DNA of 64,000 nucleotides from Prochlorococcus marinus str. MIT 9215. Lineage in GTDB: Bacteria; Cyanobacteriota; Cyanobacteriia; PCC-6307; Cyanobiaceae. The stretch's first letter is position 1; each line of letters begins with the position of its first letter. Under the pieces are notes generated by a model, which made no database searches, had not been told where the DNA came from, and saw only the letters and a program-made list of their open reading frames with translations. The position numbers and the translations under genes are program-made. This document shows, piece by piece, positions 38,367-41,815 of this stretch. The stretch lies in NCBI RefSeq assembly GCF_000018065.1, contig NC_009840.1, positions 868,001 through 932,000 of the forward strand. The letters are read 5' to 3'.

Positions 38367-38951
38367 ATGAGTTTAAGAGTTGGCCAAGAAGCACCAGACT
38401 TTAGTGCTACAGCAGTATATGATCAAGAGTTTAAGGAGATTACACTTTCAGGTCTAAGAGGTAAATGGGTTGTTTTATTCTTTTACCCACTAGATTTTAC
38501 ATTTGTATGTCCGACTGAAATCACTGCATTTAGCGATAGATATAATGATTTTTCAGCACTTAATACTGAAATACTTGGGGTATCAGTTGATAGTAAACAC
38601 TGTCATTTGGCTTGGATACAAACTCCAAGAAATGAAGGTGGAATAGGTGATATAAACTACCCGTTAGTTTCTGACTTAAAAAGAGAAATTTGCCAGGCGT
38701 ACAATGTTCTTAATGATGATGGAGAAGCAGATAGAGGTTTATTTCTTATCAATCCCCAAGGAGTTGTTATGCATATGACTGTTAATAAGGCTCCTGTAGG
38801 CAGAAATGTTGATGAAACACTAAGGATTCTTCAAGGTTATCAATACGTTGCGGCAAATCCAGATGAAGTATGTCCAGCAAACTGGACCCCTGGGGAGAAA
38901 ACAATGCTGGAAGACCCCAAAGGTAGTAAGGAATATTTTTCTGCACTTTAA
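38367..38951 (+). CDS. 2-Cys peroxiredoxin (AhpC/TSA family)
   Basis: A thiol peroxidase that removes hydrogen peroxide and organic peroxides, reduced by thioredoxins. The 194 residues are typical. The peroxidatic Cys is in [14 protein letters not shown] near residue 51, the resolving Cys in [11 protein letters not shown] near 172. The C-terminal extension after it includes SKEYFSAL. A clear -10 box lies upstream, which suggests strong separate transcription. It is important in a lineage lacking catalase. Confidence 0.95.
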
Positions 38952-38966
38952 GCAGGATAAGAAACT

Positions 38967-39719
38967 TTAGATAAGTATTAAGTAATAAACAATTATAAAA
39001 AAATAAAAAATAAATATATTCAATATGGGGGTAACTTCCATTTTTTGAGGTATGCGTACCATCCAATCGCTTAGATTAGTTTTAAATGATAAAAAAGACC
39101 ATGTAAAAAAAGAAATTTCTATAGCGACTAATATAAAAATATTTATTAAATTTAAGTCATTTAAACCAAAATATCTATAAAAATAAAACTTTTCATCAAC
39201 AATAATTTTATTGATTTGAAGATGCCAAATATAAAGAGCAATCAAACTAAAATTTACTAATATTATTTTTTTTAATAAAAATCTTGATTTCTTAAAAATC
39301 AATAAAATAGAAATTAGAAGTATTAAAAAATTTAACTGAATAATACCAAGTTTTGGTAAATTAATTCCTTCAAAAAATAAATTAAATATAAGATCAAAAT
39401 TTATATATATATAATCGGTAATAAAGAACGAGAGAAATGTCAAATTTATAGCTACTAAGAATAATAATCTTTTGCCTTTAATTACATTTTTACTATAAAT
39501 TTTATTCCTGTTAAAAGTATAGTAAGTACAGTTTTTTAAAGAGTTTAAACATACCAAAGATGGACATATTGCACCGCTCAAATAGTAAAGAATTGAATAA
39601 AAAGAAATATCATTAGTATTGAATGAATACAAATTAAACCATTGTTTTTGTATAAATGGAAGAATAAGTAAGAATGAAACTGTAAAAAATAACTTCGTTG
39701 TATTGTTTTTAATTATCAA
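38967..39719 (-). CDS. Multi-pass membrane protein of unknown function
   Basis: A 250-residue protein with about six membrane segments (for example KLFFTVSFLLILPFI, LLFLVAINLTFLSFFITDYI and IINIFILVAIEISFF-like stretches). Polar loops contain CPSLVCLNSLKNCTYYTFN, rich in Cys near residue 52-64. It is Phe/Ile/Asn-rich, as expected from AT-biased codons. I recognise no family. It is convergent with the peroxiredoxin gene and lies downstream of the FtsH-like gene with a 39-bp gap. Confidence 0.65.
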   Translation of the reverse strand: MIIKNNTTKLFFTVSFLLILPFIQKQWFNLYSFNTNDISFYSILYYLSGAICPSLVCLNSLKNCTYYTFNRNKIYSKNVIKGKRLLFLVAINLTFLSFFITDYIYINFDLIFNLFFEGINLPKLGIIQLNFLILLISILLIFKKSRFLLKKIILVNFSLIALYIWHLQINKIIVDEKFYFYRYFGLNDLNLINIFILVAIEISFFTWSFLSFKTNLSDWMVRIPQKMEVTPILNIFIFYFFIIVYYLILI

Positions 39720-39758: not shown

Positions 39759-41513
39759 TCAAACTTTCAACAATTTGGAAGTTGTAATTTTAAATATTTT
39801 TTTATCTATAGTTTCTTGATTTAAGAGTATTTCAACTAATTTATCCAGTAAGACTCTATTCTTTTTCAATATTTTAATTGAATTACTTAATGAAATTTTA
39901 GAAATCTTTATGATTTCATTATCTATTCTAGAATTAGTATTTTCTGCAATGAGGGGCTTTCTTCTGAATAATCCATCTCCCAAAAACATTTCATTATTAT
40001 CAGAATCCATTGAAATTGGACCAATTATTGAAAATCCATATTTCGTAACCATTTCTCTCACTATGTTTGTCGCATAGGAAATATCATTTATAGAGCATTG
40101 TGTAATTTCACTTTTACCAAAAACTATCGTTTCAGCTGCTCTTCCAGCTAGAGCAATTTCAATTTTAGAAAATAATAATTTTTTTGAAATCAAGCCACTA
40201 GAAATAACATCTTCGTTAGGGCTTATTTTGGTATAACCTCCTAGAGATCCAGATCTTGGTAAAATAGTAATCTTATCAACTGATTCAATTCCATTTCTCA
40301 CAGCAGATACAATAGCTCTACCCACTTCATTATAAGCAATAATTTTTTTCATATTTTGAGAAGTTATTAATGAACTTCTCAATCCAATAGTAATTTTATC
40401 AAGGGCATTTTCTATATGAAGATCACTGATTAACTTAGATTCATCTCTTGCACAATGTATAGCACTCTCGTTCATTAAATTTGCAAGATCTGCTCCCGAA
40501 AATCCAATTGTTCTAGAAGCCCAATATCCTAAGTCAACTTCGGTTGAAAGTGGTTTTGAAAGTGAGTGAACTGAAAGAATTTTTTTTCTTCCATCTAAAT
40601 CTGGAAGCATTACTTCTATTTTTCTATCAAATCTTCCTGGTCTTAATAATGCTTTATCCAAAATATCTGGTCTATTTGTAGCTGCTAAAACAATAATCCC
40701 GGAATTATCAGCAAAACCATCTAATTCTGTTAGAAGCTGATTAAGAGTTTGTTCTCTTTCATCATTTCCACCTCCGATCCCAGATCCTCTTTGCCTACCA
40801 ATAGAATCAATTTCATCAATAAAAATTATACAAGGAGATTTTTCCTTAGCCTTAGAGAATAGATCCCTCACGCGGCTTGCACCAACCCCAACAAAAAGTT
40901 CTACAAACTCTGATGCCGATATTGAGAGAAAAGGTACTCCAGATTCACCGGCAATTGCTTTAGCCAATAATGTTTTACCTGTTCCTGGAGGACCAATTAA
41001 AAGAACTCCTTTAGGAACTTTTGCTCCAAGATTTTGAAATTTCTTTGGTTCTCTCAAAAAAGTTATTACCTCTTTTAATTCCTCAGCGGCTTCAGGAACA
41101 CCAGCTACATCATCGAATCTTGTTTCAACATCATCAATGGTTACAAATTTAGTTCGATTCTTAGTAAACCCAAAGGCTCTCGAAGCCAATTTTGATGTAC
41201 TCCTCAATATTAGGACTACAGCTAATATAAAAATTAGGAAGAGACTTATTGAAGCGAACGAATTAGCAGCTGAAGCTTCTTTTCTACTATTATTTATTGT
41301 TAGATCTACTTTATTTTCAGTAGCCTTTTGAAGTATTAATTGATCGTTGTAAAGGATAGGTATTTTAAATTTATCTCCATTTTTGTACAGAACATCAATT
41401 TCTCTCTGTCTCGGATAGAAAAATATTGATTCTATTTTTCCTGTTTCTATATCTACTAGAAGATCCGAATAACTTGATTTAGAATTTGAATATGAGAATT
41501 TTGGTCTAAACAC
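39759..41513 (-). CDS. FtsH-like AAA protein with destroyed protease site
   Basis: A 584-residue FtsH homologue. The AAA ATPase is intact: Walker A GPPGTGKT (174-181), Walker [10 protein letters not shown] (near 229) and the arginine-finger region [19 protein letters not shown] (279-297). The M41 zinc motif HExxH is changed to NEVGR (395-399; bases 40317-40331), so both zinc His are lost; the distal Asp of SINDIS remains. There is one membrane segment (about 88-104) instead of two. It should unfold or chaperone membrane proteins but not cut them, like plant FtsHi proteins. It may pair with active FtsH subunits encoded elsewhere. Confidence 0.9.
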
Positions 41514-41644: not shown

Positions 41645-41815
41645 ATGGCTGTCCCAAAGAAGAAAAAATCAAAGAGCAAAAGGAACCAAAGGCACGCTGT
41701 CTGGAAAGGAAAAGCTGCAATAGCAGCTCAAAAAGCTATATCTTTAGGAAAATCAATTCTAACTGGGAAAGCCCAAGGATTTGTTTACCCTATTGAAGAA
41801 GAAGAAGAAGAATAG
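41645..41815 (+). CDS. rpmF: 50S ribosomal protein L32
   Basis: A 56-codon frame beginning [20 protein letters not shown], which is the standard L32 N-terminus, and ending in an acidic run of Glu after FVYP. No zinc Cys are present, as in other cyanobacterial L32. A perfect frame with ATG start. It is convergent with ycf20, whose stop lies 3 bp downstream. Confidence 0.96.

Follow-up and report, generated by a model that had tools for sequence, protein, structure and literature searches.

What remains for an FtsH protein to do once the zinc-binding motif of its protease domain is gone? The question is raised by ftsH4 of Prochlorococcus marinus str. MIT 9215, which lies in the window analysed here, a stretch of 64,000 nucleotides of contig NC_009840.1. 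The gene occupies positions 39759-41513 on the minus strand and encodes 584 amino acids from a GTG start. At residues 395-399 (40317-40331, minus strand) translation and alignment read NEVGR in place of the HExxH zinc motif of FtsH metalloproteases; the original prediction that both histidines are lost was thus confirmed, by the translation and by the orthologues. Glu396 is still present, as is the distal Asp477 at the position of the third zinc ligand (40083-40085, minus strand, by residue-to-base arithmetic). The AAA motor had been described as complete, and it is: the Walker A sequence GPPGTGKT (residues 174-181, 40971-40994), the Walker B region (residues 228-239, 40797-40832), the second region of homology with its arginine-finger arginines (SRH; residues 278-298, 40620-40682), all on the minus strand, and the pore motifs are intact. 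The protein passes the Pfam cut-offs for AAA (158.8 bits) and Peptidase_M41 (152.1 bits), as well as the NCBIfam equivalog cut-off for FtsH (647 against 600 bits). Hydropathy predicts one membrane span, at residues 80-111 (41181-41276, minus strand), where FtsH typically has two N-terminal spans. The single span noted in the original prediction is therefore real, but it is not tied to inactivation, since by hydropathy the intact orthologues examined also have only one. With its motor motifs intact, HExxH gone and the M41 domain present, the protein has the features of a pseudo-protease. Judged from its sequence, it is an FtsH family member (AAA and M41) with a protease-dead motif. The genome (1,738,790 bases) contains four M41 genes, and in the remaining three the motif is intact, as HEAGH once and HEVGH twice.

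Published primers allowed us to place the gene among the named FtsH proteins of Prochlorococcus. The MED4 FtsH4 primers (PMC6300248) have exact matches in the orthologue of the MED4-type genome G010, where they delimit a product of the published length, 203 bp; the FtsH1, FtsH2 and FtsH3 primers of the same study match the three M41 paralogues. By sequence, then, the gene is 'FtsH4', the fourth FtsH that Prochlorococcus encodes. For MIT9313, too, the FtsH4 primer in print has an exact match, in G103, and the FtsH4 motif of that genome is HEIGH. Bonisteel et al. (2018, PMC6300248) describe picocyanobacterial FtsH4 as homologous to Synechocystis FtsH1, a relationship 'less obvious than the others', and Table 1 of PMC11262661 sets it beside Slr1390 with the function 'cell viability'. 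Our FtsH4 ATPase tree, drawn without a Synechocystis 6803 genome, was weakly resolved and did not settle the FtsH1 type; FtsH4 is probably of the Slr1390/FtsH1 type, an assignment that is weak and follows Bonisteel et al.

The original prediction was aware of no cyanobacterial case described before, yet Mishra et al. (2019, PMC6460958) and a 2021 review (PMC8197885) already credit P. marinus SS120 with one FtsHi that is presumably inactive. An SS120-type genome (G066) has four M41 genes, one of which (NEAGK) lacks HExxH, and the published SS120 FtsHi is almost certainly the orthologue of the window gene. The relevant passages of these two papers name that one strain; they do not contain the spread through the clade, the single origin, the rule that the second histidine becomes Lys or Arg, the FtsH4 identity or the truncated UPF0182 neighbour. 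Relative to those passages, what is new here is that the loss spans the clade and arose once, that it follows the Lys/Arg rule, and that the UPF0182 neighbour is truncated. In the parts consulted of the two papers that treat FtsH4 by name, its lack of HExxH is not remarked on: the words zinc, inactive and HEXXH are absent from PMC6300248, and inactive, zinc and proteolytic from PMC11262661.

To see how far the dead motif extends, we read the fourth FtsH in 104 genomes. It was dead in 61, with 13 motif variants, and intact (HE[VI]GH) in 43. NEVGR accounted for 42 of the dead motifs, QIIGK for five and HEIGK for four, and RNASK, NEAGK, YEIGR, NEIGR, HEAGR, NEVGK, QIIGR, QQVGR, RESAR and HQIGK occurred in one genome each. 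The expectation that NEVGR would be found in every orthologue held within the window's genus (42/42 genomes read, which are also all the NEVGR genomes of the survey) but not beyond it, where the dead motif differs from lineage to lineage and marine Synechococcus and the MIT9313-type genome (G103) keep the motif intact. None of the 42 orthologues read in the window's genus has an intact motif that would betray a frameshift or an error in the MIT 9215 sequence. The second histidine was replaced by Lys or Arg in all 61 dead genomes, and six of them (HEIGK, HEAGR, HQIGK) retain the first. Because the first histidine remains in six dead genomes and the second in none, loss of the second is the shared, and probably the first, change. 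Among the 24 dead sequences examined, the position of Ala474 was Ser in all. The distal Asp, predicted to remain, does so in MIT 9215 but in only 13 of these 24; elsewhere among the dead sequences, the Glu and the acidic residue of the third ligand are variable or gone. Ten extra fourth-FtsH genes were intact in three g5 genomes and in G194, G201, G123, G086 and G128, and dead in G171 and G149.

A count of HExGH matches in 151 genomes gave the same picture. None of the 31 genomes in the five dead genera had more than three (28 with three, three with two), and 108 of the 120 genomes outside these genera had four. Among the 12 exceptions, the fourth gene was read and found intact in eight and contains a match in two; G074 and G105 yielded no fourth gene. 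A scan of named genomes, which was biased by its query and is no survey of bacteria, listed the best 80 loci: 77 had HExxH and three NEVGR, the latter all from named Prochlorococcus single-cell genomes (L294-L296). Many IMG/VR viral contigs (L372-L415) encode FtsH-like proteins with HEGGH intact. None of the viral contigs carried a dead FtsH copy; HExxH was present in 38 of 45 matched stretches, and the other seven do not cover the site.

Within the window's genus, an FtsH4 orthologue scoring at least 1026 bits and free of internal stops was found in 53 of 61 genomes. The eight genomes that miss it are incomplete (80-97%), and seven of them also miss a close peroxiredoxin match, which the eighth has on a 3.1-kb contig. 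These eight absences are likely assembly gaps, with real loss the less probable reading. Two of these genomes, G058 and G060 (97% and 95% complete), have neither FtsH4 nor a close peroxiredoxin match, which is probably a gap. FtsH4 was retained in every sampled dead lineage with a complete genome. Sequencing error and pseudogene formation are ruled out by the stop-free orthologues and the uniform NEVGR across the genus. The most divergent dead copy (L065 5934-7649, in G061) reads RNASK in a 574-aa frame and sits on a very long branch of the ATPase tree.

We then asked how often the site had been lost. In a tree of the three paralogues that are active, built from 28 genomes, the 13 dead lineages formed one clade (bootstrap 99, SH-aLRT 98). 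One outgroup row of this tree was the wrong paralogue, and in a quick tree with the outgroup corrected the dead clade had an SH-aLRT of 97. The tree of the FtsH4 ATPase only, which did not include eight rows (five dead, three intact), was poorly resolved, showed no single dead clade and needed two changes. On these sequences, the zinc site appears to have been lost a single time, in the common stem of the high-light clade and the SS120-, MIT9211- and NATL2A-type lineages.

The original prediction held that the motor is under selection, with dN/dS below 1, and this is what we found. Over 30 genomes of the window's genus, the median dN/dS over pairs was 0.057 for the FtsH4 gene, 0.020 for AAA and 0.088 for M41; at about 0.02 within this high-light genus, the ATPase gives no sign of relaxed constraint. 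The claim that the gene is selected and conserved across the genus, rather than decaying, agrees with this low AAA value and with the 53 stop-free copies. Between MED4- and MIT9515-type genomes, dN/dS was 0.099 for FtsH4 against 0.014-0.021 for the three paralogues, and for AAA 0.038 against 0.004-0.013; in its rate of evolution FtsH4 outpaces the paralogues about 4-7-fold. Across 31 intact sequences, 149 AAA columns are invariant, and 120 of these were kept in at least 90% of the 24 dead sequences, compared with 23 of 75 such columns in M41. The dN/dS values hinted at disproportionate decay of M41, which we rejected since the M41-to-AAA divergence ratio of dead pairs (2.1-4.8, 8 pairs) did not exceed that of intact pairs (1.6-8.2, 10 pairs); paralogue pairs gave 2.1-2.9 (3 pairs). 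As far as substitutions tell, the motor is clearly constrained, under purifying selection, but less so than in active FtsHs, and FtsH4 has the long-term conservation that characterizes FtsHi-like proteins.

The predicted structure points in the same direction. The model of the window FtsH4 (mean pLDDT 77.4) matched 6gco_A with a TM-score of 0.90 normalised to the target, and its second-best PDB match was a chain of 8xqw, the Ycf2-FtsHi motor complex. Since the model matches solved chains of both FtsH and the Ycf2-FtsHi motor, we predict that the M41 domain keeps its fold.

The neighbourhood of ftsH4 changed as well. In 18 loci compared, the gene lies between a divergently oriented 56-aa gene on one side and a 2-Cys peroxiredoxin on the other, the latter out of reach or unmatched in two (L084, L089). 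In the window, these conserved flanks are the 56-aa gene at 41645-41815 (plus strand, assigned by synteny), which we take to be ribosomal protein L32 (rpmF), and the peroxiredoxin at 38367-38951 (plus strand). The next gene after ftsH4, at 38967-39719 on the minus strand, encodes a 250-aa membrane stub that a profile-profile match identifies as an N-terminal remnant of UPF0182 (PF03699); the match to residues 20-277 of full-length UPF0182 had a probability of 96.4% and an E-value of 1.3e-9. The window stub has no Pfam match at all, and neither it nor four other stubs match PF03699 over the cut-off. Searched with a profile of five stubs, themselves members or copies of the 53 described below, 52 of these 53 matched at E<1e-3 and L067 at 0.0014. 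The window stub is fast-evolving (46% pairwise identity to the MED4-type copy) yet open. Its median dN/dS over pairs of 28 sequences of the window's genus was 0.34. As the stub values (0.33-0.45) are below 1, we consider it still read as protein.

UPF0182 is the next gene in 23 intact genomes, all confirmed by BLAST (the set leaves out G107, in which a high-GC open frame is not UPF0182); it is full length in 10 (915-955 aa), and in the other 13 the frame stays open to the contig or locus end (364-846 aa). In other intact genera, UPF0182 lies 1.7-3.0 kb downstream of ftsH4 where the locus reaches that far. Among 59 readable dead genomes, by contrast, none had a full-length UPF0182 after ftsH4: 53 had a stub of 221-277 aa and six, all g32 (NATL2A type), had none. 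Two further dead genomes end at a contig edge and are outside the 59. The region of UPF0182 that the stubs match is its N-terminal membrane part, to roughly residue 277, and their similar ends in the high-light, g2, g7 and g22 lineages fit one truncation. The full-length UPF0182 model had a mean pLDDT of 70.9, and the protein had no structural relative in the PDB at E<=0.001 and no sequence match there.

The two losses do not depend strictly on each other. Of 151 genomes, 112 have PF03699; the remaining 39 are 31 from the dead genera, seven of g5 and G074 (20 identified by name, the rest by subtraction). Three of the seven g5 genomes drawn were read (L200-L202), and all have HEVGH. Genus g5 is an independent loss of the UPF0182 neighbour with FtsH4 intact, which rules out strict coupling: as these three HEVGH genomes show, a lineage can lose UPF0182 without its FtsH4 having to die. 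We dropped G074 as a joint loss, as its peroxiredoxin lies at a contig end and a gap is probable. With all dead lineages in a single clade, the agreement between the two losses has the weight of one event rather than many. Outside the picocyanobacterial family, no FtsH lay within about 1.5 kb of UPF0182 in 30 loci of the class, and the portions consulted of the literature on UPF0182 and related gene names hold no link to FtsH.

What, then, would the dead protein do? The explanation we favour, and to which we give an even chance, is that FtsH4 is a selected, non-proteolytic subunit of mixed hexamers with the Slr1604-type FtsH. By sequence and tree, an ordinary picocyanobacterial FtsH lost its zinc site once on the crown-Prochlorococcus branch; it retains its AAA motor and M41 fold, as motifs, constraint and model show. 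From M41 chemistry, it should not cut peptides without zinc ligands. It would instead serve as non-cutting motor and scaffold beside the Slr1604/FtsH3-type FtsH, in hexamers with about half the active sites, and its contribution would be to pull, to position the complex and to recognise partners. To the resolution of the branch, the adjacent UPF0182 lost its C-terminal part of about 680 residues at the same time, and a role of FtsH4 proteolysis with or upon UPF0182 may have been given up there, perhaps as the cause. The mixed assembly, which the original prediction also raised, is plausible by analogy, because the Synechocystis heterocomplexes are FtsH1/3 and FtsH2/3 in the part of PMC11287208 consulted. 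It is weakened by the faster evolution of FtsH4, the few M41 columns kept and the weak FtsH1-type assignment, and also because FtsH4 is absent from the main MED4 ftsH transcripts as named in the consulted part of PMC6300248, and the legend of a metaproteome figure in PMC11262661 gives columns for FtsH1-3 only. If a dead subunit does enter such hexamers, it might instead throttle the FtsH3-type protease by displacing active subunits. The same mixed-hexamer logic applies, as protease-dead subunits would alter the number of active sites, but the data do not separate this role from that of a scaffold, and we regard it as improbable.

Alternatively, FtsH4 may act alone, as a homo-hexameric, protease-free unfoldase or dislocase that pulls on or remodels membrane proteins; where a lineage has the UPF0182 stub, this may be its membrane partner. 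Its own motor is complete, and the stub lies directly downstream, is present in 53 of the 59 readable dead genomes and evolves at a dN/dS of 0.33-0.45, below 1. However, the six g32 genomes have FtsH4 without any stub, and Synechocystis FtsH1 occurs with FtsH3 (PMC11287208, as consulted), which makes this explanation rather unlikely. About as unlikely is the proposal that FtsH4 and UPF0182 form one picocyanobacterial unit, a membrane protease and its large membrane-anchored partner, which a single event in crown Prochlorococcus converted into a protease-free pulling machine. This would consist of the motor and the short membrane stub, with the positive Lys/Arg at the second-histidine position acting as a plug that replaces the charge of the zinc and keeps the M41 ring together. 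Slow decay would explain the cut-down or lost UPF0182, the fast-evolving stub, the faster evolution of FtsH4 relative to its paralogues and the very divergent RNASK copy of G061: the ftsH4-UPF0182 unit would have become dispensable during genome reduction and be disappearing stepwise, with the constraint on the motor reflecting some minor function or the damage that a faulty subunit would do to mixed hexamers. We think this unlikely given the stop-free full-length frame in 53 of 61 genomes, with gaps best explaining the eight misses, the AAA dN/dS of about 0.02, and the presence of FtsH4 in every complete dead lineage sampled. That FtsH4 is still a metalloprotease with altered ligands, as Glu396 and Asp477 in MIT 9215 might suggest, is extremely improbable: all 61 dead genomes have Lys or Arg for the second histidine, and in other dead copies the acidic third ligand and the Glu are variable or missing.

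Our preferred reading, a selected subunit of mixed hexamers, concerns a protein that the consulted parts of PMC6300248 and PMC11262661 treat as an FtsH protease parallel to Synechocystis FtsH1. Going by its sequence, FtsH4 of the high-light, NATL2A-, SS120- and MIT9211-type lineages cannot be an ordinary protease, which changes how FtsH levels, and the control of iron, nitrogen and carbon by FtsH1/3, are to be read in these cells. That most of UPF0182 was lost as well is a first functional hint for an uncharacterised family; if the two proteins do form one unit, it would become the first functional handle on UPF0182. As intact sister genes exist, the step from protease to pseudo-protease is directly testable.

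Besides the FtsHi of SS120, three known systems are the closest comparisons. Synechocystis FtsH1 (Slr1390), the partner of FtsH3 and assigned homologue of picocyanobacterial FtsH4 (PMC6300248 and PMC11262661, as consulted), is described in a proteolytic FtsH1/3 complex, whereas FtsH4 of these Prochlorococcus lineages lacks the zinc ligands. The FtsH4 of marine Synechococcus and basal Prochlorococcus is the positional orthologue, with the same flanks and the same single span, but it has HE[VI]GH intact and a full-length UPF0182 adjacent or 1.7-3.0 kb downstream. FtsHi1, 2, 4 and 5 of plants and green algae resemble FtsH4 in having the FtsH fold with its motor and no HExxH. In contrast to the plant FtsHi of the Ycf2-FtsHi complexes (8xqw, 8xku), FtsH4 is bacterial and apparently of separate origin, because intact FtsH4 orthologues exist in its sister lineages. 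FtsH4 would then be a bacterial, independently arisen counterpart of plant FtsHi.
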